Shown piece by piece: positions 10,969-24,451 of a DNA stretch of 64,000 bases. The first letter of the stretch is position 1. The number at the start of each line of letters is the position of its first letter. Location of the stretch: positions 1-64,000 of the forward strand of contig SUWH01000012.1 of assembly GCA_015061605.1 (NCBI GenBank), written 5' to 3'. The notes beneath the pieces were generated by a model that worked only from the letters and a program-made list of their open reading frames with translations, was not told the origin of the DNA and searched no databases. This DNA is from Lentisphaerota bacterium. Lineage in GTDB: Bacteria; Verrucomicrobiota; Lentisphaeria; Victivallales; Victivallaceae. Both the position numbers and the translations under genes were made by a program.

Positions 10969-10981
10969 CCGGATGATCCGG
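10969..10981. other. Short palindrome after coaC
   Basis: CCGGAT-G-ATCCGG is a perfect 13-base interrupted palindrome eight bases after the coaC stop, in the gap before the macroglobulin gene. It could be a small protein-binding site or weak hairpin; there is no T-run. Confidence 0.25.
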
Positions 10982-11040
10982 TGAGAGTGTGTCTTTCAGT
11001 GAGTGTTTTGCAAGCGGTATTATTATCTGGAGTAATAGTT

Positions 11041-14000
11041 ATGAATAATTTGCTGAATTTCGTTCTCACGTTTAAAAAAATCATCCTGACAGGATTGCTT
11101 TTGACCGTACTTCTTGCCGGAAATACGCTTTCTGCCGGTACTCAAAGACTGCAGACTTTGAGAAAACAGGAGTTGTGGAAAGAACTCCGGATCGAAGCGC
11201 AAAAACAGCTCGATGCCATTGCTCCGGACGATCCTCGTGCCGGAAAATACTGGGATTATCTGCTTTGCGGAGTTTTCAACGGCAATGAAGCGGCGCAATA
11301 TGATGAATTGTTTGCCAAATACGCCGCCGGTAAATTTGCTCAAAATGCGGCGTTTTTCGCTTATCCGTGGCAGAAATGGGCAAAAAATTGCGGTTTCGGT
11401 TTTATCATCGACAACAACTTCAAACGCGGAGCCAACCGGGGCAATGCCGGACGGATGGCGACTTGTTTTGAACGCGACCGGGTACAGCAGTTAGCTTTGA
11501 TGTTCGCCCTCGTCCCAAAAGTTTTGAAAAATCCTCAAAGTGCTGATACCAAACACTTTTTCTGTAATTTAGCGTTGCTTTTACTGCAAAACCGCAACTC
11601 CGGCAGCTCCTATAAGCTGCAAACATTGACCGATTTGAAAAAACTTCCTGACTACGATACTCCCGAAGGGCGCGTTACCACCATCAGCCGACCGCCGGTG
11701 AAGCCGGACGGCACTCCCCTTTTCTACAAGCTGCCTGAAACCTGGGAAAGTGCCGCCAATGACGGTGAACGGCTCCATTTCGTCGTTAAACATGCCGACT
11801 GCAAAGAAGCGGAACTCCTCTGGGCGGAGTTTCTCTGCGGGCAATTCGATTTTCTGACTCTGGATCACCGGTTCCGGCAGGAGTATTACCTGACCCCCGC
11901 CATGAAACAGTATCTTTATGACCTTAAAGACAACGAAACCGTTGCCGGACTTGCCGACGGCACGCGCCGCATCACACTGCCAAAGGAATTCAACTACATT
12001 GAACTCTACAAGAAACTCGGCAAACATGAGCAGCTCGGCAAAATCTACGCTTCCAGAATGCAGTTTGAAAAGGCAATTTCTGAATTTGAAAAAGTTCCAT
12101 CTTACATGAAAACCTATGTCGATCAACTCAAAAACAGCTGGGGCAAACCGGAAGCAATGCATGTAACTCCCGCCAATACTGAATTGACCATCCCCTACCA
12201 CTTCCGCAATGCCAAAAAGCTCACCGTCAAACTCTACAAGGTCGATATGACCAAGGCGATGGAACGGCTGCTCGAAATGCTCAAAAATCCGGAATCCAAC
12301 TCCTATTTGATTTCCCAGCCCTTTTCAAACCACAAAGAAAGCAAAAAATTCTGGAACGGTCTTATCAGCAAAACTCCGGAAATCGTCCGTACCTTTGACC
12401 TTTCCCCCCTGCCGCACCACTGGGAATCTATTGCATATTTGAAGTTCGGCAAATTTGCCCCGGGGGTCTTTGCCGCCGAATTTATCCCCGATAATAATGA
12501 AAAATCCCGCGTTTATTCCATGATCTGGAACGCCGATTATGCCCTGACACTTCAGAATGGAGCCGGCAATGGAAAATTCCGGCTCTTTGTGAATGACCCT
12601 GTTTCCGGCAGACCCATTCCAGGTGTCACGCTCAAAATTTATTCTTACTATCACCGTTACGGCGGCAGACAGCGCAAACAGCGCCAGAGCATCACTCCGG
12701 AAGTTACCACATTGAAAACCGATGAAAACGGTATTGCTGAATTTTCCAAAAATATTTTCAAACAGCCCCCAAAAAGCTACATCGCCGCACGTTACATCAT
12801 CGCTGAAACCCCGGCAGGCAAACTTACTTTGCTCAACTGCAGCTATTTTCACCCCAACATTCCCGATTCACCCAATGAATCTCCGCGCACCTTTGTCATC
12901 ACCGACAAAACGATTTACAAACCCGGTGACAAAATCGCCTTGACCGGCTACTGGCGCCGCCCCGCTTACGATGGAAAAATGAGTGTTTTCAAAGGTAAGA
13001 GCGTCACACTCGTTTTCTTTGATCCGCAACATAAAAAGGCGTTCAAAAAAACCGTTCCCTTTGATGCAAAAAGTCAGAGTTTCACCTTTGAAGTGACTCT
13101 GCCGGATGATGCGATGCTGGGCGAATGGCGGGTCAACTGCCGTGAACTGCGTTTCAGTACCGGTTTCCAGGTTGAAGAGTACAAAAGACCCGAATACCTC
13201 CTCACCGTAACGCCGCCAACTGAACCGGTCAAAGCCGGAACGAAGATACCAGTTTCCATCGAAGCAAAATATTATTTCGGTGCCCCGGTGGCAAATGCGG
13301 AGGTCGCTTACAAAGTTTACCGTTCGGAAACTGCTCCCATTTATCCCTTTGCTTTCCTCTGGAACTGGCTCTACGGCAGCCGTTACGCCATTTGCACTGC
13401 AGCATATCAAAATCCCGAAGTCCAAAATATAAATTACGGTCAGGTTCTCATTTGCGATACCAAAGGCAGAACCGATGCCAAAGGTGTGCTGAAATTTGAG
13501 ATCGACTCCGCTGATGCCCTCGCCAGATTCGGCAATAAAGATTTCCGGTACACCGTGGAAGCGGAGGTGAAAGACTCCACCAACCGGATCGTTTCCGCTT
13601 CCGGCAGTATCATTGCCGCCGTGAAACCGTTTGCCGTTCATCTCTACACTCCGTGGGGCTTTGCCCGAACCGGTTCGCGTTATCCGGTCGAAGTCAAGGC
13701 GGTAACTCCGGACGGCAAACCGGTCAAAGGCAGAGGTGTTTTGCAGATTTTCCGCCGCTCCTTGAATAAAGACGGCGTTCCGGCGCGTTCCGGAGCGGCG
13801 TTGAAAACCATTCACTTCACTTTGAGTGACGGAAAAAATTCAGAATTCATCCTGAATGAAGAGGGGGTGTACGAACTCTATGCCGAAGTCACTGCGGAAA
13901 ATGGCATCACCGTTTCTGAATCAATGCCAATTTTCATCGTCGGCGAAAAGCAGGGATCTTCACTTTTCGGCGAATACCCGATAACCGTTTCCAGCGATAA

Positions 14001-16986
14001 ACCCACCTACCGCCCCGGTGAAACGGCGCAGCTCCTCGTTTCCTGTGACCGCCCCGGACGGACGGTCTACTTTATCACCCGTTCCGAACGGGAGGCAAAA
14101 ATCGAATATGTTACATTAAATGGATACTCCAAATTGTTCAGCATCCCCATTGAGAAAGGCGATCAGCCCAATTTCTTTGTCGATGTGATGAGTTATCAGG
14201 ATGGCAAAATGTTGACTTTACAGAAACAGCTCTTTGTCCCTCCGGAAAAAAAGGTGTTGAATGTCGCCGTTTCTCCCAAAGCAGATAAGGTCAAACCGGG
14301 AACGTGTCTGCCGGTCGAAATCGCCGTCACCGGTCTGGACGGCAAACCCATTTCCGGCAATGTGACCGTCGCCGTATATGACAAGAGTCTGGAAGCCCTT
14401 GCCCCAAACCGCATCCCGGCAATTTCTCCATTTTTCTGGGACTGGAAACGGCACGATCAGCTTCATTTCCTCCACAACTTCAGCACTCCGACCGACATCA
14501 GTTATGACCGGGAAATGATGCAGAATATCGAAAACAGTTTTTCACTGCCCTTCCACAACGATAGTGGAGCCGTAATGTATATGATGCGCAACAACCGGAT
14601 GATGCTTACCAAATCCGTCGATGCGGCAAGGCCGGCACCGGCGGCTGAGGCAAAGCAAGTGGAATATTTGAGTTCGCCAGTTGCGATGAGGGCATTGGGG
14701 GCATCTGAAGCAATCCCGTCTGCTGACCGCAAAGCAGCTCCGGTCATACTCCGGAAAAACTTCCGTGACCGGGCGTTCTGGGCGGGGCGCCTCGAATTGC
14801 CCGCTTCCGGCAAAACGACGGTCAATGTGCCGCTGCCGGATGATCTTACCACCTGGGTCGTCCGGGTCTGGAGTTTGACCGGCGACACCCGCGTCGGCGA
14901 AGCCAGAAGTGAAATCATCGTCAGCAAAGATCTGATCGCCCGGTTGGAACTGCCGCGCTTTATGGTTTCCGGCGACACCGTTGATGCGGTGGTTAATATC
15001 AACAACACCTCCAATAAAGATTTGGGTGAATGTACCGTTTCCCTGACCGCTCCCGGACTTTTGAACGGAATGTATCAGAAGAAAGTAACGCTTAAAGCCA
15101 ATGGCAATGTGACTTTCAATGTGCCGTTGACGGCTTCAGCTCCGGGAGAATACACGCTCACTCTGTCGGCACAAAACAAGTTTGATTCTGACGCTCTGGA
15201 GCTGAAACTGCCAGTGCTGGTCAAAGGTATCGACAAGCAGGTCAACTTCTGCGGCAGACTGGATGAGAAAAATAAAAAGACAGTCTTCACGCTCGATATT
15301 CCGGAACAGCGCAAAAAAGAGACCACCGCCTTTGCCCTCCACCTCTCCCCCGGCGCGGCAAAGAATATGGTCGAACTTCTTCCTTATCTGGCGGCGGACG
15401 ATTCCGGAGATGTTTTCGGCGTGGTCAACCGCTTCCTGCCGGCGCTGTCGGCAAAACTCGCACTGCAAAAGCTCAATATCAAGTGGGAAGATGCCGTCGG
15501 CAATAAGACGGCGCGCGATCCCTTGTACGCTGAATATATGCAGCGGTTCAGTTGGAACGGCAAAGCTGTTCCCACTTTCAAAGCAACCGATTTTGACCGC
15601 GTGATAAAGACAAATTTGCAGATGATTTCCAAAATGGTCAACCGTGACGGCGGCTGGGGCTGGTTCGGAGCCTACCGGGAACAGAGCTGGCCCGATACCA
15701 CCGCGTATGTGGTCGATGCATTATCGGAACTTCAAGATAAAAAGTACCGCACACTGGTTGAAAACGGCGTGCTATGGCTGAAAAAATATGCGGAAAAACG
15801 CATCAGTGAAATCAAAAAATATAAATCAGTGAGCAATACCGATGCCCTCGTTGCCCGGGTGCTTGCCAAAGCGGGAAAACCGCACAAAGAGCTGATGAAA
15901 CTTTGTTATGAATACCGTAAATCCCTTGCCCCCTACGGTTATGCGATGCTGGCACTGGCATTCGACAAGGAGAGTGCGGAAAGCCGAATGCTCATCCGCA
16001 ATCTGGAACAGTTTTTGAAAGTCGATGATGAAAACAATACCGCATATTTGAATATTCCCACCGCTTGCTGTTTCTTCTGGTACGGCAATGAAAATGAAAC
16101 TTTATCCGCCTATCTGGAACTTCTGCTGCGCAACGATCCCAACAGCATCATTGCACAGAAAGTTGCCAACTATCTGGTGACCAATGTGCGCAATTCGCCG
16201 TGGCGCAACTCCACGCGTTCACTTGGAGCTGCGGTGCGGGCGTTGGCAAAATATATCGTTGCCAGTGGCGAAGGCAAGCCGGATTTCACCGTCACCGTGC
16301 GGACGAAAAATGCGGAACATAAATACACTTTCAACGCTCAAAATATGTGGCAGAATGATAACCCCGCGCTTTTCATTCCTGCCGGACAACTCAAATCCGG
16401 CAGACAGAATATCGAAATCGAATTTTCCGGCAAGGGCGCGCTTTACTGGAATGGCATGCTCAATTACTTCACTCTGGAAGAAAACATTCCGCCTGCCGGA
16501 CTGGAAATGCAAATCAAACGCAACTACTATCTGCTCCGTCAGGATAATGACGCCGCCGCTCTTCTCGCCGGAAAAGATGGTGCCGCCGTCAGTGAAAAGG
16601 TGCTGAAATATAAACGCATTCTGCTTAAAGATGGTGACACCGTCAATCCGGGCGATCTGGTGGAGGTCGAACTCATTTCCACAGCGAAAAATGATTACGA
16701 TTATGTGGTGTTTCAGGATGCTATGCCTTCCGGATTTGAGTACGTAAACCCGGCGAGCGGCTGGATGTGGCAGTGGTCAAGCCCGATGTATGTGGAATAC
16801 AAGGAGCGCGGAGCAAAATTCTATCTGCGCAATATGGCACGCGGGCAATCCAATGCCTTTTACCGCATCCGCGCCCAGCTTTGCGGCAAAGTCACTGCGC
16901 TTCCGGCAAAAGGATACGGAATCTATGCTCCGGAGCTTAAATGCAACAGCGCACAGCAGATGTTGCAGACTGAAGCTGCAAAATAA
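11041..16986 (+). CDS. Alpha-2-macroglobulin family protein lacking the thioester motif
   Basis: 1981 residues from the ATG at 11041 (GGAG eight bases upstream; an in-frame GTG at 10981 is less likely). A signal peptide or anchor covers residues 1-35. Landmarks: MG-type beta domains, repeated FVITDKTIYKPGDKI and SSDKPTYRPGETAQL segments, the LPDDLTTWVVRVWSL segment (alpha-2-macroglobulin domain), and the alpha/alpha toroid with NRDGGWGWFGAY. In relatives such as YfaS the toroid carries GC(T/V)EQ before the RFLPA-like segment. Here the aligned stretch reads GDVFGVVNRFLPA, Asp1457 replacing the reactive Cys, so covalent trapping is lost. About 450 residues longer than E. coli YfaS. No pbpC partner gene is nearby. 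Probably a periplasmic protease-trapping or envelope-defence protein. Confidence 0.9.
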   Translation: MNNLLNFVLTFKKIILTGLLLTVLLAGNTLSAGTQRLQTLRKQELWKELRIEAQKQLDAIAPDDPRAGKYWDYLLCGVFNGNEAAQYDELFAKYAAGKFAQNAAFFAYPWQKWAKNCGFGFIIDNNFKRGANRGNAGRMATCFERDRVQQLALMFALVPKVLKNPQSADTKHFFCNLALLLLQNRNSGSSYKLQTLTDLKKLPDYDTPEGRVTTISRPPVKPDGTPLFYKLPETWESAANDGERLHFVVKHADCKEAELLWAEFLCGQFDFLTLDHRFRQEYYLTPAMKQYLYDLKDNETVAGLADGTRRITLPKEFNYIELYKKLGKHEQLGKIYASRMQFEKAISEFEKVPSYMKTYVDQLKNSWGKPEAMHVTPANTELTIPYHFRNAKKLTVKLYKVDMTKAMERLLEMLKNPESNSYLISQPFSNHKESKKFWNGLISKTPEIVRTFDLSPLPHHWESIAYLKFGKFAPGVFAAEFIPDNNEKSRVYSMIWNADYALTLQNGAGNGKFRLFVNDPVSGRPIPGVTLKIYSYYHRYGGRQRKQRQSITPEVTTLKTDENGIAEFSKNIFKQPPKSYIAARYIIAETPAGKLTLLNCSYFHPNIPDSPNESPRTFVITDKTIYKPGDKIALTGYWRRPAYDGKMSVFKGKSVTLVFFDPQHKKAFKKTVPFDAKSQSFTFEVTLPDDAMLGEWRVNCRELRFSTGFQVEEYKRPEYLLTVTPPTEPVKAGTKIPVSIEAKYYFGAPVANAEVAYKVYRSETAPIYPFAFLWNWLYGSRYAICTAAYQNPEVQNINYGQVLICDTKGRTDAKGVLKFEIDSADALARFGNKDFRYTVEAEVKDSTNRIVSASGSIIAAVKPFAVHLYTPWGFARTGSRYPVEVKAVTPDGKPVKGRGVLQIFRRSLNKDGVPARSGAALKTIHFTLSDGKNSEFILNEEGVYELYAEVTAENGITVSESMPIFIVGEKQGSSLFGEYPITVSSDKPTYRPGETAQLLVSCDRPGRTVYFITRSEREAKIEYVTLNGYSKLFSIPIEKGDQPNFFVDVMSYQDGKMLTLQKQLFVPPEKKVLNVAVSPKADKVKPGTCLPVEIAVTGLDGKPISGNVTVAVYDKSLEALAPNRIPAISPFFWDWKRHDQLHFLHNFSTPTDISYDREMMQNIENSFSLPFHNDSGAVMYMMRNNRMMLTKSVDAARPAPAAEAKQVEYLSSPVAMRALGASEAIPSADRKAAPVILRKNFRDRAFWAGRLELPASGKTTVNVPLPDDLTTWVVRVWSLTGDTRVGEARSEIIVSKDLIARLELPRFMVSGDTVDAVVNINNTSNKDLGECTVSLTAPGLLNGMYQKKVTLKANGNVTFNVPLTASAPGEYTLTLSAQNKFDSDALELKLPVLVKGIDKQVNFCGRLDEKNKKTVFTLDIPEQRKKETTAFALHLSPGAAKNMVELLPYLAADDSGDVFGVVNRFLPALSAKLALQKLNIKWEDAVGNKTARDPLYAEYMQRFSWNGKAVPTFKATDFDRVIKTNLQMISKMVNRDGGWGWFGAYREQSWPDTTAYVVDALSELQDKKYRTLVENGVLWLKKYAEKRISEIKKYKSVSNTDALVARVLAKAGKPHKELMKLCYEYRKSLAPYGYAMLALAFDKESAESRMLIRNLEQFLKVDDENNTAYLNIPTACCFFWYGNENETLSAYLELLLRNDPNSIIAQKVANYLVTNVRNSPWRNSTRSLGAAVRALAKYIVASGEGKPDFTVTVRTKNAEHKYTFNAQNMWQNDNPALFIPAGQLKSGRQNIEIEFSGKGALYWNGMLNYFTLEENIPPAGLEMQIKRNYYLLRQDNDAAALLAGKDGAAVSEKVLKYKRILLKDGDTVNPGDLVEVELISTAKNDYDYVVFQDAMPSGFEYVNPASGWMWQWSSPMYVEYKERGAKFYLRNMARGQSNAFYRIRAQLCGKVTALPAKGYGIYAPELKCNSAQQMLQTEAAK

Positions 16987-19944: not shown

Positions 19945-22900
19945 TTACCGTCTTCCGGCATTTCTCTGCCAGACGTCCATGGCATCGGTTCCGCGACTGT
20001 CCACTTCCCTGCGGGCTTGGGTGGAAATGATTCTGCCATTACTGTCCAGAACTATCAGCGTCGGTATTCCGCGTATATTGAATTCCCGTTTCAATTCACT
20101 CCTCTGCGAGTCATTAAATGGAACCGCCAGCCATGGCATGGAATATTTTTTCATATAATTCATCATTGCTTCTGAAGTTCTGTCGCTGCTGACAAGAATC
20201 AGTTCAAAATTTGATTTCTTTATTATCCGCTTATAGAATCTTACCAGTTCCGGAGTGAATTTACGGCAGGGACCGCACCAGGAGGCGGAAAAGTAAAGTG
20301 CGACCATTTTACCTCTTAATGCCGTTGCGGTATTGATTTGCGTACCGTGACGGTTGATAAGTGTTGCCGGTAATTTGTCAACGAACCAATTCTGTGTTCC
20401 TGCGTTCTGTGCCGGTTGTGTTTTTGACAACATATCGCTGTATTTTGCATTGATTTCCAGTGCCATATTCCGCAATTCAACAGAGTTCAAGGCGCGTTCA
20501 TATATCCTTATATGGCGGATGTCGCCGTAAAAGGTTCTTCCGGCAGAATAGTTGGTAAAGCAGAAACTCTCCTGACTCGAATTTCTCATACTCTTGCTTG
20601 GGTTGAATCTGAAATCATCGCTCAATTTGAAGTGCTTCACTTTGCCGTCAAAGATCACTTCCAAACGCTTTTCCGGAATTGAAAACGTCACTTGACAGCT
20701 GTGCCACTTATTCAATTCGACCTCGAATCCGGTCTCAAAAATGACTCTGCCATTACTTAAAGTTACCGCCAATTTACGGTTCGGCAGTGCCAATGCAAAA
20801 TAGCGCATGGGGCGACTCAGTACAAACACCGGATAACTTCTGCTGTATCCACGCGGTGCGCCGGAACGCGGATAAAAGAGTATTGAAACTGAAAAATTCT
20901 GTATCGCCTCTTTGGATATCGGGATCGCGTTGCGCTTTGCTCTGCCGTACTTATCTCTCCATTCTCTGGAATTGGGATAAATGCCGTCAAGTTTCAAAAA
21001 AACATTCTGAAGCATTTGAGGGGTAAAATAATTCCGCTGTTCTTCATTCAATCTGCCAAAATCAATATCATGTTGCCATGCTGTCCGGTTTGCTGTATTT
21101 GAAGTGTTATCCCGATTATCTGTCCGGCGGACGGCTGCTGCCGGATTGATTTTTATCTCACATGAAGCGGGCAGTTTCCAACTGGAACTTTGCGATTTCA
21201 AGTGCGCCGGAATGGTGATGCTTTTTAAATTTGTACAGTCCTCAAAGGCTTTGCTGTTTACAGTTGTTACACTTGATGGAATAACTATTTCAGTAAGTCC
21301 GGAGCACCGATAAAATGCAAATGAATTTATTTCAGTTACACTGTCCGGGATTTTAACACGGACCAGGCGGTCATTGGTACTGAAAAGGCTGGGAGGAACA
21401 GCAGTCACCCCATTCGGGATTTCATATTCCGGTATATTTGGTACATAAAACAATTTTGTTCCGCTGTAATTCAGCAGTGCACCATATTCATCCAATTTGA
21501 AATTCCGGTTGTCAGGAGATAATTTCACAGATGCAATACCCCTTAAAGCTCCAACTGGAAGAGATCTGAGACTGTTCGGCAGCTCCAGCGAGAGTTTTCG
21601 GCAATCTGAAAAGGCAAACATTCCAATTGTTTCCACACTGTCCGGCAGATTTATCTCTTCCAGGTTGTAACAACGTATAAAAGCCCATCTGCCGATACGC
21701 TTCACTCCGTCCGGTAATACGACACGTTTCAAATCATATTTGTCTTTCATGGAGTTATCATCGATCACAGTTACTCCGGGCGGGATGATTGCTTTTTCAA
21801 TATTTTTATTGGTGCATTTTATCAATGTCTTACCATCTGAACTCAATTGGAAATCCCGCAGACTGCTGACGGTCAAATGTTCCTGGTCTGAAACATTAGT
21901 ACTGTTATTCTCTGAATCACTTCTTTTGCTGACCTGCCGGGTGGAGGTTGTACTGCTGACCTGCCGGGTGGAGGTTGTACTGCTGACCTGATTTCCGTAA
22001 ACTTCAATTTTGCACGATGCGGGCAGTTTCCAATTGGAACTCTGTGATTTCAAGTGTGCCGGAATGGTGATTCTTTTCAAGCTGCGGCAATTATAGAATA
22101 TATAGTTCCATGTATGATCTAGTCTATTGCCTGTGTAGTTGTAGAGATGACTGATTTGGATGACACTGTCCGGAATGGTGATCGATTCCAGTTTTTGGCA
22201 TCCTCTGAATGCATTGTTGTAAATACGAGTCACACCATCGGGGACGGTGACAGAAACCATATCTTTATTCAGACATTCCACCAGAATTCTGCCGTTGTTG
22301 GTGATTTTCAATCCCATGCTCTCGTAGTGGGCAGAGAGGGCAGTATTTTCTTTTTCCAGTCCGATATCCACCAGACGGTGGCTGAATCGTTCCGGCAATT
22401 TCAAATTGCTCAATCCCGGACAGTTCATAAATGCCTCCGAACCGATATAATATAGTTTTTTCGGAATGTTGATCGAAGTTAAAGCGGTACAATTCTTAAA
22501 TGCTTCATCTTCAATACGTTTTATCGTGTCCGGCAAAACTGCTTTTTCCAGATTGCGGCAATCTTTGAACATGCCTGAAGAGATGACTTTCAAATCGGTT
22601 TCGATAACGATCTCTTTCAAGCTGCGGCATCCTTCAACGGAATTGTTGTTGAAATTTTTTATTCTCTGCGGTATGACAAGTTTGGTCAAATTGGCGCATT
22701 TACGGAAACATCCGTTTCCGATTCTGGTGATATAATCCGGGATTTCAAAATTTTCAACTGACGGCGGGACGTAGAGCAGAAGTTTTTTCTCCAAATCGAC
22801 TAAAGCTCCCTCCGGTGTGAGCCGGAAATTGTGATTACCGGGAGCAAGTTCGATTTTTTTAACTCCGGTGAATGCGTCTTCGTCGATCCTGATCACCGTG

Positions 22901-24435
22901 GCGGGAATAGTCAATTTCTGCAAATTGTCGCAGTCGGCAAATGCACTTGATCCGATCGACTCCAGATACGGCGGTAATTGCACCTCCTTTATTTCCGGAG
23001 AATTACTGAATGCAAAGTTCATGATCGACTGCACCGTATCCGGGATGACCATTTTTGCACTCTTTTTTTCACATCTTACCAGCTGGGTCATGGCGGGATT
23101 GAAAATCATACCATCCCGGGTCGGGAACGGATCAGGATATTGGGAGGCCGGGAGTGTCTCATCTCCGGGGGGATTCAACTTGCCGTATATGATGAAACCG
23201 GCGATGATCAGACCGCTTATCGCCATAACAGCCAGAAATCCCTGCCATATTTTACCCATAACGGATGATTTGCCGGAAAGTTTCAGTTTGGGCAGTTTTA
23301 AATCCAGTTTGCGTTTTTTGCTTTTTCCGGATTTCAACTCGTCGAGCAGTTTTCCGAAGTCATCCGGGCGGTCTTCGCGCTTTTTTGCGGTCATTCTGGC
23401 AATAAGCATTGAGGTTTTAAGCGAAATTTCCGGATTGACTTCATGCGCCACAGGCAGATCTTTTTCCAATACATTGCACATCACGCCGAAAACCGATTCT
23501 GCTTCAAAGGGGCGTTTGCCGGTCAGCATGTGGTAAAGTGTTGCACCCAGACTGTAAATGTCGGCGCGGCAGTCGACCTGATGTGAGGAACGCAACTGTT
23601 CCGGTGAAGCATAGTTCGGTGTGCCAAGTACGGCATTATCCAGAGTCAATGTAACATTTTGTTTGCCGTCGCTTTCAACTTTGGCGATACCCAGGTCGGC
23701 AACTTTTATCTCCCCGGTACGGCTCAACATGATGTTGGCGGGTTTGATGTCGCGGTGAGTTATTTTATGTTCGGCAGCGACCTTCAACGCTTCGGCAACT
23801 TCGGTTATGATTTCCAATGCGCGTTCTTCCAGCATCGGGCCGTCAACTAAAATCTGTTCGATGGAAACACCATCGACATACTCCATGACGATATAACTTG
23901 AAGCGGATTTTTCATCTAACTCCGCATCCAGTACCGCAATAAGATTTTTGTGCTGGATCTGACTTGCCAGCCGCGCTTCACGGAGCAGACGCGCCCGCAT
24001 TTCCGGGTCATCTTTGGCAATATCGTGCTTCAACAGCTTCAATGCACAGCGGTGATTGAGCAACGTGTGTTCGACCAGATAGACTTCGCCCATGCCGCCG
24101 ATACCCAGACAGCGGATCACCCGGTATTTGCCGATGATATCGCCGGCTTTGTAAGTGGCAGTCTTGAGCATTTCAGTATGCTTCGGGGATTCCGGCAGAT
24201 ACTTTGCCGAATCCTCACCCAGAGAAAGTATGATACTTTTCTGACAATGGGGACAGCTGCTTGATGAACCCAGCATCCAGATGGAAATATCCAGCATCCC
24301 GCCGCACTCCGGACAGGGATAGATGATCTGTTTGTCAACGACATTCACCGTTCCGGTACAATTCGGACAGCGCACCTTGCTCCCGAGCGAATCGGCCGAA
24401 ACATAAAACTCATAGTGACAATGTTTGCAAAGCAT
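19945..24435 (-). CDS. Membrane Ser/Thr kinase with LRR, LamG and thioredoxin-like ectodomain
   Basis: 1496 residues. Order: two zinc ribbons (C3-C6-C23-C26; C41-C44-C61-C64); a Hanks-type kinase (about 104-360) with GIGGMGEV, Lys133, HRDIKPAN (Asp229), DLG (Asp247) and GTPNYASPEQL, so probably active; a basic linker; one membrane span (about 398-418); a dozen or more BspA-type LRRs (IPDSV...AFxxCxxL) in two blocks separated by a Ser/Thr-rich linker with an exact 27-bp DNA repeat; a LamG/concanavalin-like region (about 1140-1320); and a thioredoxin/nucleoredoxin-like domain with WCGPC (1387-1390) and cis-Pro GIPT. The kinase is cytoplasmic and the rest periplasmic or surface-exposed. Ligand and substrates unknown. 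It follows ahcY by 29 bp; a ten-G run lies just before the start. Confidence 0.9.
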   Translation of the reverse strand: MLCKHCHYEFYVSADSLGSKVRCPNCTGTVNVVDKQIIYPCPECGGMLDISIWMLGSSSSCPHCQKSIILSLGEDSAKYLPESPKHTEMLKTATYKAGDIIGKYRVIRCLGIGGMGEVYLVEHTLLNHRCALKLLKHDIAKDDPEMRARLLREARLASQIQHKNLIAVLDAELDEKSASSYIVMEYVDGVSIEQILVDGPMLEERALEIITEVAEALKVAAEHKITHRDIKPANIMLSRTGEIKVADLGIAKVESDGKQNVTLTLDNAVLGTPNYASPEQLRSSHQVDCRADIYSLGATLYHMLTGKRPFEAESVFGVMCNVLEKDLPVAHEVNPEISLKTSMLIARMTAKKREDRPDDFGKLLDELKSGKSKKRKLDLKLPKLKLSGKSSVMGKIWQGFLAVMAISGLIIAGFIIYGKLNPPGDETLPASQYPDPFPTRDGMIFNPAMTQLVRCEKKSAKMVIPDTVQSIMNFAFSNSPEIKEVQLPPYLESIGSSAFADCDNLQKLTIPATVIRIDEDAFTGVKKIELAPGNHNFRLTPEGALVDLEKKLLLYVPPSVENFEIPDYITRIGNGCFRKCANLTKLVIPQRIKNFNNNSVEGCRSLKEIVIETDLKVISSGMFKDCRNLEKAVLPDTIKRIEDEAFKNCTALTSINIPKKLYYIGSEAFMNCPGLSNLKLPERFSHRLVDIGLEKENTALSAHYESMGLKITNNGRILVECLNKDMVSVTVPDGVTRIYNNAFRGCQKLESITIPDSVIQISHLYNYTGNRLDHTWNYIFYNCRSLKRITIPAHLKSQSSNWKLPASCKIEVYGNQVSSTTSTRQVSSTTSTRQVSKRSDSENNSTNVSDQEHLTVSSLRDFQLSSDGKTLIKCTNKNIEKAIIPPGVTVIDDNSMKDKYDLKRVVLPDGVKRIGRWAFIRCYNLEEINLPDSVETIGMFAFSDCRKLSLELPNSLRSLPVGALRGIASVKLSPDNRNFKLDEYGALLNYSGTKLFYVPNIPEYEIPNGVTAVPPSLFSTNDRLVRVKIPDSVTEINSFAFYRCSGLTEIVIPSSVTTVNSKAFEDCTNLKSITIPAHLKSQSSSWKLPASCEIKINPAAAVRRTDNRDNTSNTANRTAWQHDIDFGRLNEEQRNYFTPQMLQNVFLKLDGIYPNSREWRDKYGRAKRNAIPISKEAIQNFSVSILFYPRSGAPRGYSRSYPVFVLSRPMRYFALALPNRKLAVTLSNGRVIFETGFEVELNKWHSCQVTFSIPEKRLEVIFDGKVKHFKLSDDFRFNPSKSMRNSSQESFCFTNYSAGRTFYGDIRHIRIYERALNSVELRNMALEINAKYSDMLSKTQPAQNAGTQNWFVDKLPATLINRHGTQINTATALRGKMVALYFSASWCGPCRKFTPELVRFYKRIIKKSNFELILVSSDRTSEAMMNYMKKYSMPWLAVPFNDSQRSELKREFNIRGIPTLIVLDSNGRIISTQARREVDSRGTDAMDVWQRNAGRR
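21928..21990 (-). repeat. Exact 27-bp tandem repeat in the kinase/LRR gene
   Basis: Two identical 27-bp units (21928-21954 and 21955-21981) and a 9-base third partial unit. They encode QVSSTTSTR twice plus QVS in the Ser/Thr-rich linker between the LRR blocks. The unit is a whole number of codons, so copy changes would alter linker length without a frameshift. Confidence 0.9.
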
Positions 24436-24441
24436 ATTCTG

Positions 24442-24451
24442 CCCCCCCCCC
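24442..24451 (-). promoter_or_regulatory. Ten-G homopolymer just upstream of the kinase start
   Basis: Ten consecutive Cs on the + strand, i.e. ten Gs on the coding strand, end six bases before the ATG, where the ribosome binding site should be. No other good site is visible. Slippage in this run could change translation. Confidence 0.7.

Follow-up and report, generated by a model that had tools for sequence, protein, structure and literature searches.

The window that we analysed, a stretch of DNA of 64,000 nucleotides, encodes on its minus strand a protein of 1496 amino acids (P0001) which, judging by its domains, its motifs and its predicted topology, is a single-pass receptor-type Ser/Thr kinase, and whose external part would consist of leucine-rich repeats (LRR), a LamG domain and, at the far end, a thioredoxin (Trx) domain. 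This arrangement is new but its kind is not, because an earlier example exists of a thioredoxin-like domain in the external part of a kinase. The coordinates of the original prediction, which did not give the strand, are correct, and the reading frame is unbroken. The features of the gene are the following.

19945..24435, minus strand, whole open reading frame P0001 (1496 aa), read from 24435 to 19945 with 0 internal stops
24442..24451, minus strand, tract of 10 G (sense strand), 6 nt from the ATG, at the ribosome-binding position
24244..24435, minus strand, zinc ribbon region with four CxxC pairs, predicted cytoplasmic, aa 1-64 (motifs)
23365..24126, minus strand, Hanks-type Ser/Thr kinase domain, aa 104-357 (Pfam Pkinase, E = 7.1e-46)
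23173..23250, minus strand, predicted membrane span with the N-terminus inside, aa 396-421 (hydropathy and charge bias)
21991..23145, minus strand, BspA-type LRR block 1, aa 431-815 (LRR_5; limits set by eye), ending in AHLKSQSSNWKLPASC
21927..21990, minus strand, perfect 27-bp repeat in 2.4 copies, QVSSTTSTR linker joining the two LRR blocks
21136..21885, minus strand, BspA-type LRR block 2, aa 851-1100 (LRR_5; limits set by eye)
20476..20901, minus strand, LamG (Laminin_G_3) domain, aa 1179-1320 (Pfam; 56-58% identical to that of the C5 paralog)
20029..20313, minus strand, Thioredoxin_8 domain, aa 1375-1469, with WCGPC at 1386-1390 and GIPT at 1456-1459 (Pfam, E = 5.9e-30)

The kinase domain is above the Pfam cut-off and its catalytic motifs are intact (GIGGMGEVY at 111, HRDIKPAN at 227, DLG and ASPE), which agrees with the earlier description of an apparently active Hanks kinase, activity being predicted; the nearest solved structure is that of PknB (7e-50). 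The two zinc ribbons that had been proposed stand only in part: the four N-terminal CxxC pairs are present, but the Pfam Double zinc ribbon (DZR) match on the kinase protein reaches only E = 0.039. Hydropathy and charge indicate one membrane span, as had been anticipated, 396-421 being the single hydrophobic stretch. The 30 residues before it include 11 K/R and 1 D/E, the 30 residues after it 2 K/R and 4 D/E; because of this imbalance in K/R, the N-terminus of the kinase is most likely inside and all that lies past the span outside.

The two LRR blocks are well above the Pfam cut-off, since LRR_5 matches five stretches with E = 1.5e-98 and 325.9 bits (cut-off 27.7). The ends of the two blocks are 88% identical across 68 nt. 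The LRR matches in the PDB are 4fs7, 4gt6 and 4h09, all deposited under generic names, the last of which matches aa 909-1081, in block 2. The LamG-like region also has statistical support: in the full protein, Laminin_G_3 is slightly under its cut-off of 27.6 bits (25.6 bits, E = 1.5e-5), but the isolated domain is over it (30.2 bits, 6e-7), and the idea of a chance match was then dropped. The LamG domain of the C5 paralog, once isolated, passes the cut-off too (27.8 bits), and its homolog in the related genome G029 has no Pfam match. The jelly-roll fold expected of a LamG domain is putative here: a profile search of LamG against the PDB gives a best E of 0.085, the LamG models are of low quality, and modelling the ectodomain as a whole yields a mean pLDDT of just 39. 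When the 137 genomes of the order are searched for this LamG subtype, matches of domain length are found only in kinase proteins (3/3: this protein, C5 and the G029 kinase), which suggests that the pairing of kinase and LamG is older than the addition of Trx; one more match, in G021, is a fragment of 54 aa.

The thioredoxin domain with WCGPC and a GIPT cis-Pro loop is confirmed, Thioredoxin_8 being above its cut-off and both motifs intact. The closest solved structures are tryparedoxins. The AlphaFold2 model of aa 1100-1496 has a mean pLDDT of 51.5, with blocks of 71-84 in the Trx part (aa 1350-1469) and a poor LamG part, and tryparedoxin-I tops the PDB matches in a fold search with this model. 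The domain thus has the fold, the CxxC and the cis-Pro of a tryparedoxin, and its thiol-disulfide activity is predicted.

Searching the order for this domain at 1e-6 gives a match in 26 of 137 genomes, that of the fusion (G000) included. The full-length relatives amount to 20 genes in 18 of the 136 other genomes (42-59% identity, WC[GP]PC), and weaker relatives occur in 7 further genomes (25-48% identity, none in a frame longer than 379 aa); over the 137 genomes, the fusion itself is the only frame of more than 574 aa with a Trx match. In the same genus, a full-length relative is present in 10 of 33 other genomes, and in G029, the nearest relative of G000 by SahH (95% identical), the fusion is absent and no standalone gene matches the Trx. 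A signal peptide is seen in 20/20 full-length relatives when a lenient hydropathy rule is applied, which indicates that this domain is normally outside, where the predicted topology also places the fused copy. Three of the 20 (L146, L160, L161) are larger two-domain proteins, and none of the 20 genes has a kinase match. A standalone copy of the fused Trx was not found in G000 (88.7% complete), where Thioredoxin_8 has just one further match, a marginal one (4.6e-4) to a frame of 103 aa. In a tree of 22 rows, the fused domain falls among the standalone ones at a position that lacks resolution, and its end branch (0.82) is the second longest of the 22 (median 0.43, longest 0.87).

The Trx module is most likely a secreted thiol oxidoreductase, of the tryparedoxin/TlpA type, that was captured by a receptor kinase, since its 20 full-length relatives bear signal peptides and none of them is fused to a kinase, and since the kinase cassette is shared with other ectodomains. 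Direct adjacency of a kinase gene and a Trx gene is seen at one of the 20 loci, in G024 (L157), where the kinase gene lies directly upstream of the standalone Trx gene, on the same strand; by eye, its product has a span and a Cache-like external region.

L157:2115-5422 (G024), membrane-type kinase gene upstream of a secreted Trx gene

At the G031 locus (L143), 1.7 kb and other genes separate the Trx gene from a shorter kinase gene upstream of it, and none of the remaining 18 loci, some of which are short stretches, has a kinase match. A kinase of G031 (L105:1079-2758) has at its end a segment that weakly resembles Thioredoxin_7 (E = 0.007, below the cut-off) and that by eye has no CxxC; it is maybe another kinase with a Trx ectodomain. 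In a genome of another class (G209, L132:184-4473), a 1430-aa protein with a signal peptide, as judged by eye, has a related Trx end (WCPPC) and no HRDxK motif.

The search for the same architecture in related genomes, which the original prediction called for, shows that the exact combination of BspA-type LRR, LamG and distal tryparedoxin-type domain occurs in none of the 136 other genomes of the order, 0/136 of which have a kinase fused to a Trx of the same kind. In a sample of the phylum (387 genomes), at least 139 have a Trx match at 1e-10. Eleven regions, picked from the longer frames of this sample and of the Thioredoxin_7 matches listed for the order, contain no H[RC]D[LIVM]K in ORFs of at least 150 aa, a screen that detects kinases by that motif only; further long frames in these two sets include those of G197 and G337 (about 510 aa). 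The named genome collection gives 10 loci, each with LRR or Trx matches only. The viral contigs have no match to the whole kinase protein; they contain 50 weak Trx relatives, a few of which served as alignment rows. Among open-licence PMC papers, we found no report of LRR, LamG and thioredoxin on one kinase.

In its general form, the statement that no kinase had been described with a redox domain in its ectodomain is wrong, since PknE (Rv1743) of M. tuberculosis has a DsbA-like ectodomain. According to PMC3792642 (2013), PknE is a single-pass Ser/Thr kinase (kinase 1-289, span 337-359) with an extracytoplasmic DsbA-like domain (377-566) that has a CPPC motif and a Thr-cis-Pro. PMC1262709 (2005) describes a kinase of M. 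tuberculosis, identified there by its gi number, whose extracellular region contains a DSBA-like domain for which a catalytic role was suggested; we infer that this kinase is PknE. The portions of PMC2877116 and PMC6213207 at hand mention no second redox ectodomain on a kinase. Like PknE, the present protein is a Hanks kinase that crosses the membrane once and has, on the extracytoplasmic side, a thioredoxin-fold domain with a CxxC and a cis-Pro. Unlike in PknE (566 aa), where the DsbA-like domain comes soon after the span, this domain is of the Thioredoxin_8/tryparedoxin type and lies at the far end of an LRR/LamG ectodomain of about 1075 residues, about 950 residues from the span, and the DSBA family is absent among the Pfam matches. 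The PASTA kinases (PknB/PrkC) share with it the kinase, the single span and the sensor ectodomain, but it has no PASTA match among the Pfam families listed, and its score for NF033483 is 272.8 bits for a cut-off of 450. The secreted tryparedoxin/TlpA-like proteins of the order (20 genes) have a Trx domain 42-59% identical to its own and, unlike the fusion protein, are short, carry signal peptides and have no kinase. PknE would thus be joined by a second bacterial kinase whose extracytoplasmic part includes a thioredoxin fold; the two cases are apparently independent, as the domain here belongs to another thioredoxin family and is located beyond LRR and LamG modules. Two independent cases would make the extracytoplasmic thiol state more credible as an input of Hanks kinases.

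The cassette formed by the zinc ribbon region and the kinase has at least 12 matches in G000, its own gene included, and three paralogs of this genome share it at 77-86% identity, with ectodomains that differ. In the C50 paralog (L029, 1485 aa) the cassette is 85-86% identical and the LRR are shared, the ectodomain being LRR only by Pfam; in the C5 paralog (L030, 1620 aa) the cassette is 77% identical and the LamG is shared, next to long regions that have no Pfam match. Neither has a Trx match. The DNA is 88.8% identical to C50 over a stretch that begins 10 nt before the start codon and runs to codon 368, past which C50 aligns only in short LRR pieces (30-98 nt, 71-90%), and 77.9% identical to C5 up to codon 372, after which LamG alone aligns (65%). 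Because the identity stops near codons 368/372, the cassette is shared, and what follows, the membrane and external part, was either swapped or changed past recognition. The kinase of G029 (G029:C6, L091, 1294 aa) has a cassette 74% identical and a LamG homolog (37%), and no LRR or Trx match. The paralog set is a clear natural case of sensor swapping, with one conserved cassette and varied ectodomains.

We note that in C50 a 655-aa LRR protein (L029:6587-8554), whose start resembles by eye the N-terminus of the kinase, adjoins the kinase gene, and that the stretch between the two (L029, 5970 to 6587) contains a degenerate kinase fragment (aa 176-208); this is perhaps a decayed tandem copy of the kinase. 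Another unusual arrangement is seen in four relatives of the same genus, where one protein combines a kinase that has CxxC pairs at its N-terminus with a type II/IV secretion ATPase (T2SSE, E from 7e-70 to 1.5e-101).

L094:815-4654, kinase-T2SSE fusion
L096:809-3607, kinase-T2SSE fusion
L097:409-3969, kinase-T2SSE fusion
L102:758-3784, kinase-T2SSE fusion

Is the protein real? The fusion is known from a single metagenome-assembled genome (G000, 2.56 Mb in 52 contigs, 88.7% complete), as assembly sequence only, and its paralogs share the LRR and LamG segments, which could have misled the assembler into joining two or three genes. We consider this very unlikely, considering that 1496 codons lie in one open frame, that no second Trx copy was found in G000 as the source of a wrong join, that the G+C content shows little step at the LamG/Trx junction (44% vs 46%) and that the modules of exported type are all on the outer side of the membrane. 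The gene is internal to a contig of 90,300 bases and its domains have a G+C content of 42-51%. A frameshift or a read-through fusing two genes was rejected, since the frame has no internal stop.

The sequence itself shows which domains and catalytic motifs the protein has, its topology, which paralogs it belongs with and that the Trx relatives have signal peptides. On this basis, we tentatively propose that the kinase is involved in sensing linked to thiols or redox state, a reading to which we give somewhat less than even odds. The LRR blocks and LamG would bind a partner at the cell surface or in the environment; the Trx domain, to which the DsbD of G000 would supply electrons, would swap thiols with that partner or report the redox state beyond the membrane; and a change in the pairing of the ectodomains would then activate or silence the kinase through trans-autophosphorylation, a mode of control which is established for the receptor kinase family and is assumed here. 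PASTA kinases are controlled by ectodomain pairing, according to PMC6213207. DsbD is encoded at C14, with DsbD_TM and Thioredoxin_7 in the same frame and, by eye, an N-terminal domain bearing cysteines. This reading is weakened by the fact that the fusion is known from one genome, that G029 lacks it and has no Trx match, that the model of the ectodomain is poor, that kinase and Trx genes are adjacent at one of 20 loci and that kinases are abundant in the genomes of the order that were searched.

Two other readings, a tethered reductase and a binding module, agree with the data nearly as closely. If the protein were a tethered enzyme, the LRR/LamG part would capture surface or periplasmic proteins whose disulfides the Trx domain reduces or isomerises, the kinase would report occupancy, and redox chemistry would be the output. 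The intact WCGPC and cis-Pro, the resemblance of the Trx relatives to secreted oxidoreductases, the DsbD of G000 and the catalytic role proposed in PMC1262709 for the mycobacterial DSBA-like domain all speak for such an enzyme, which nevertheless has no need of a kinase in the same chain and lacks a known substrate; we regard it as rather unlikely. It may also be that the Trx fold was recruited to bind other proteins or to stabilise the ectodomain, its chemistry being irrelevant to signalling. The paralog ectodomains vary freely, the end of the G031 kinase is Trx-like with no visible CxxC, and the end branch of the fused domain is long, all of which would fit; but WCGPC and GIPT are both intact, so that we find this option improbable. 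Sensing of thiols or redox state remains the reading that we prefer.

The 10-G tract that precedes the start codon is the only run of at least 9 G or C in the window, and one of two runs of at least 10 in G000, the other being located between two likely genes. Such tracts are not enriched, because a random sequence of the size of the genome, with all four bases equally frequent, is expected to have about four; assuming 2300 genes, the 20 nt that precede each start make up about 2% of the genome. The C50, C5 and G029 paralogs have ordinary purine-rich sites at the ribosome-binding position. The location of the tract is suggestive of a possible slippage, or phase-variable, site. It is conceivable, at long odds, that the protein is a switchable redox receptor, in which LRR and LamG capture a partner, a mixed disulfide with Trx gates the kinase and slippage in the 10-G tract sets the amount of receptor; covalent thiol capture would then be the way in which this receptor kinase senses.

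The kinase gene starts 29 nt past the stop of sahH, so that the two may be co-transcribed. The order metK-pfkB-sahH is kept in the five relatives that were opened (metK is cut by the end of the contig in one), ompA is present in four, and the kinase is absent after sahH in all five, over stretches of 0.9 to 9 kb; the kinase gene looks like an addition to the sahH site. A link to the SAM cycle through the sahH cluster is unsupported, since the cluster is kept in these five relatives without the kinase. Elsewhere in the window, positions 10981-16986 encode a bacterial alpha-2-macroglobulin of 2001 aa (MG2, A2M and bait region).
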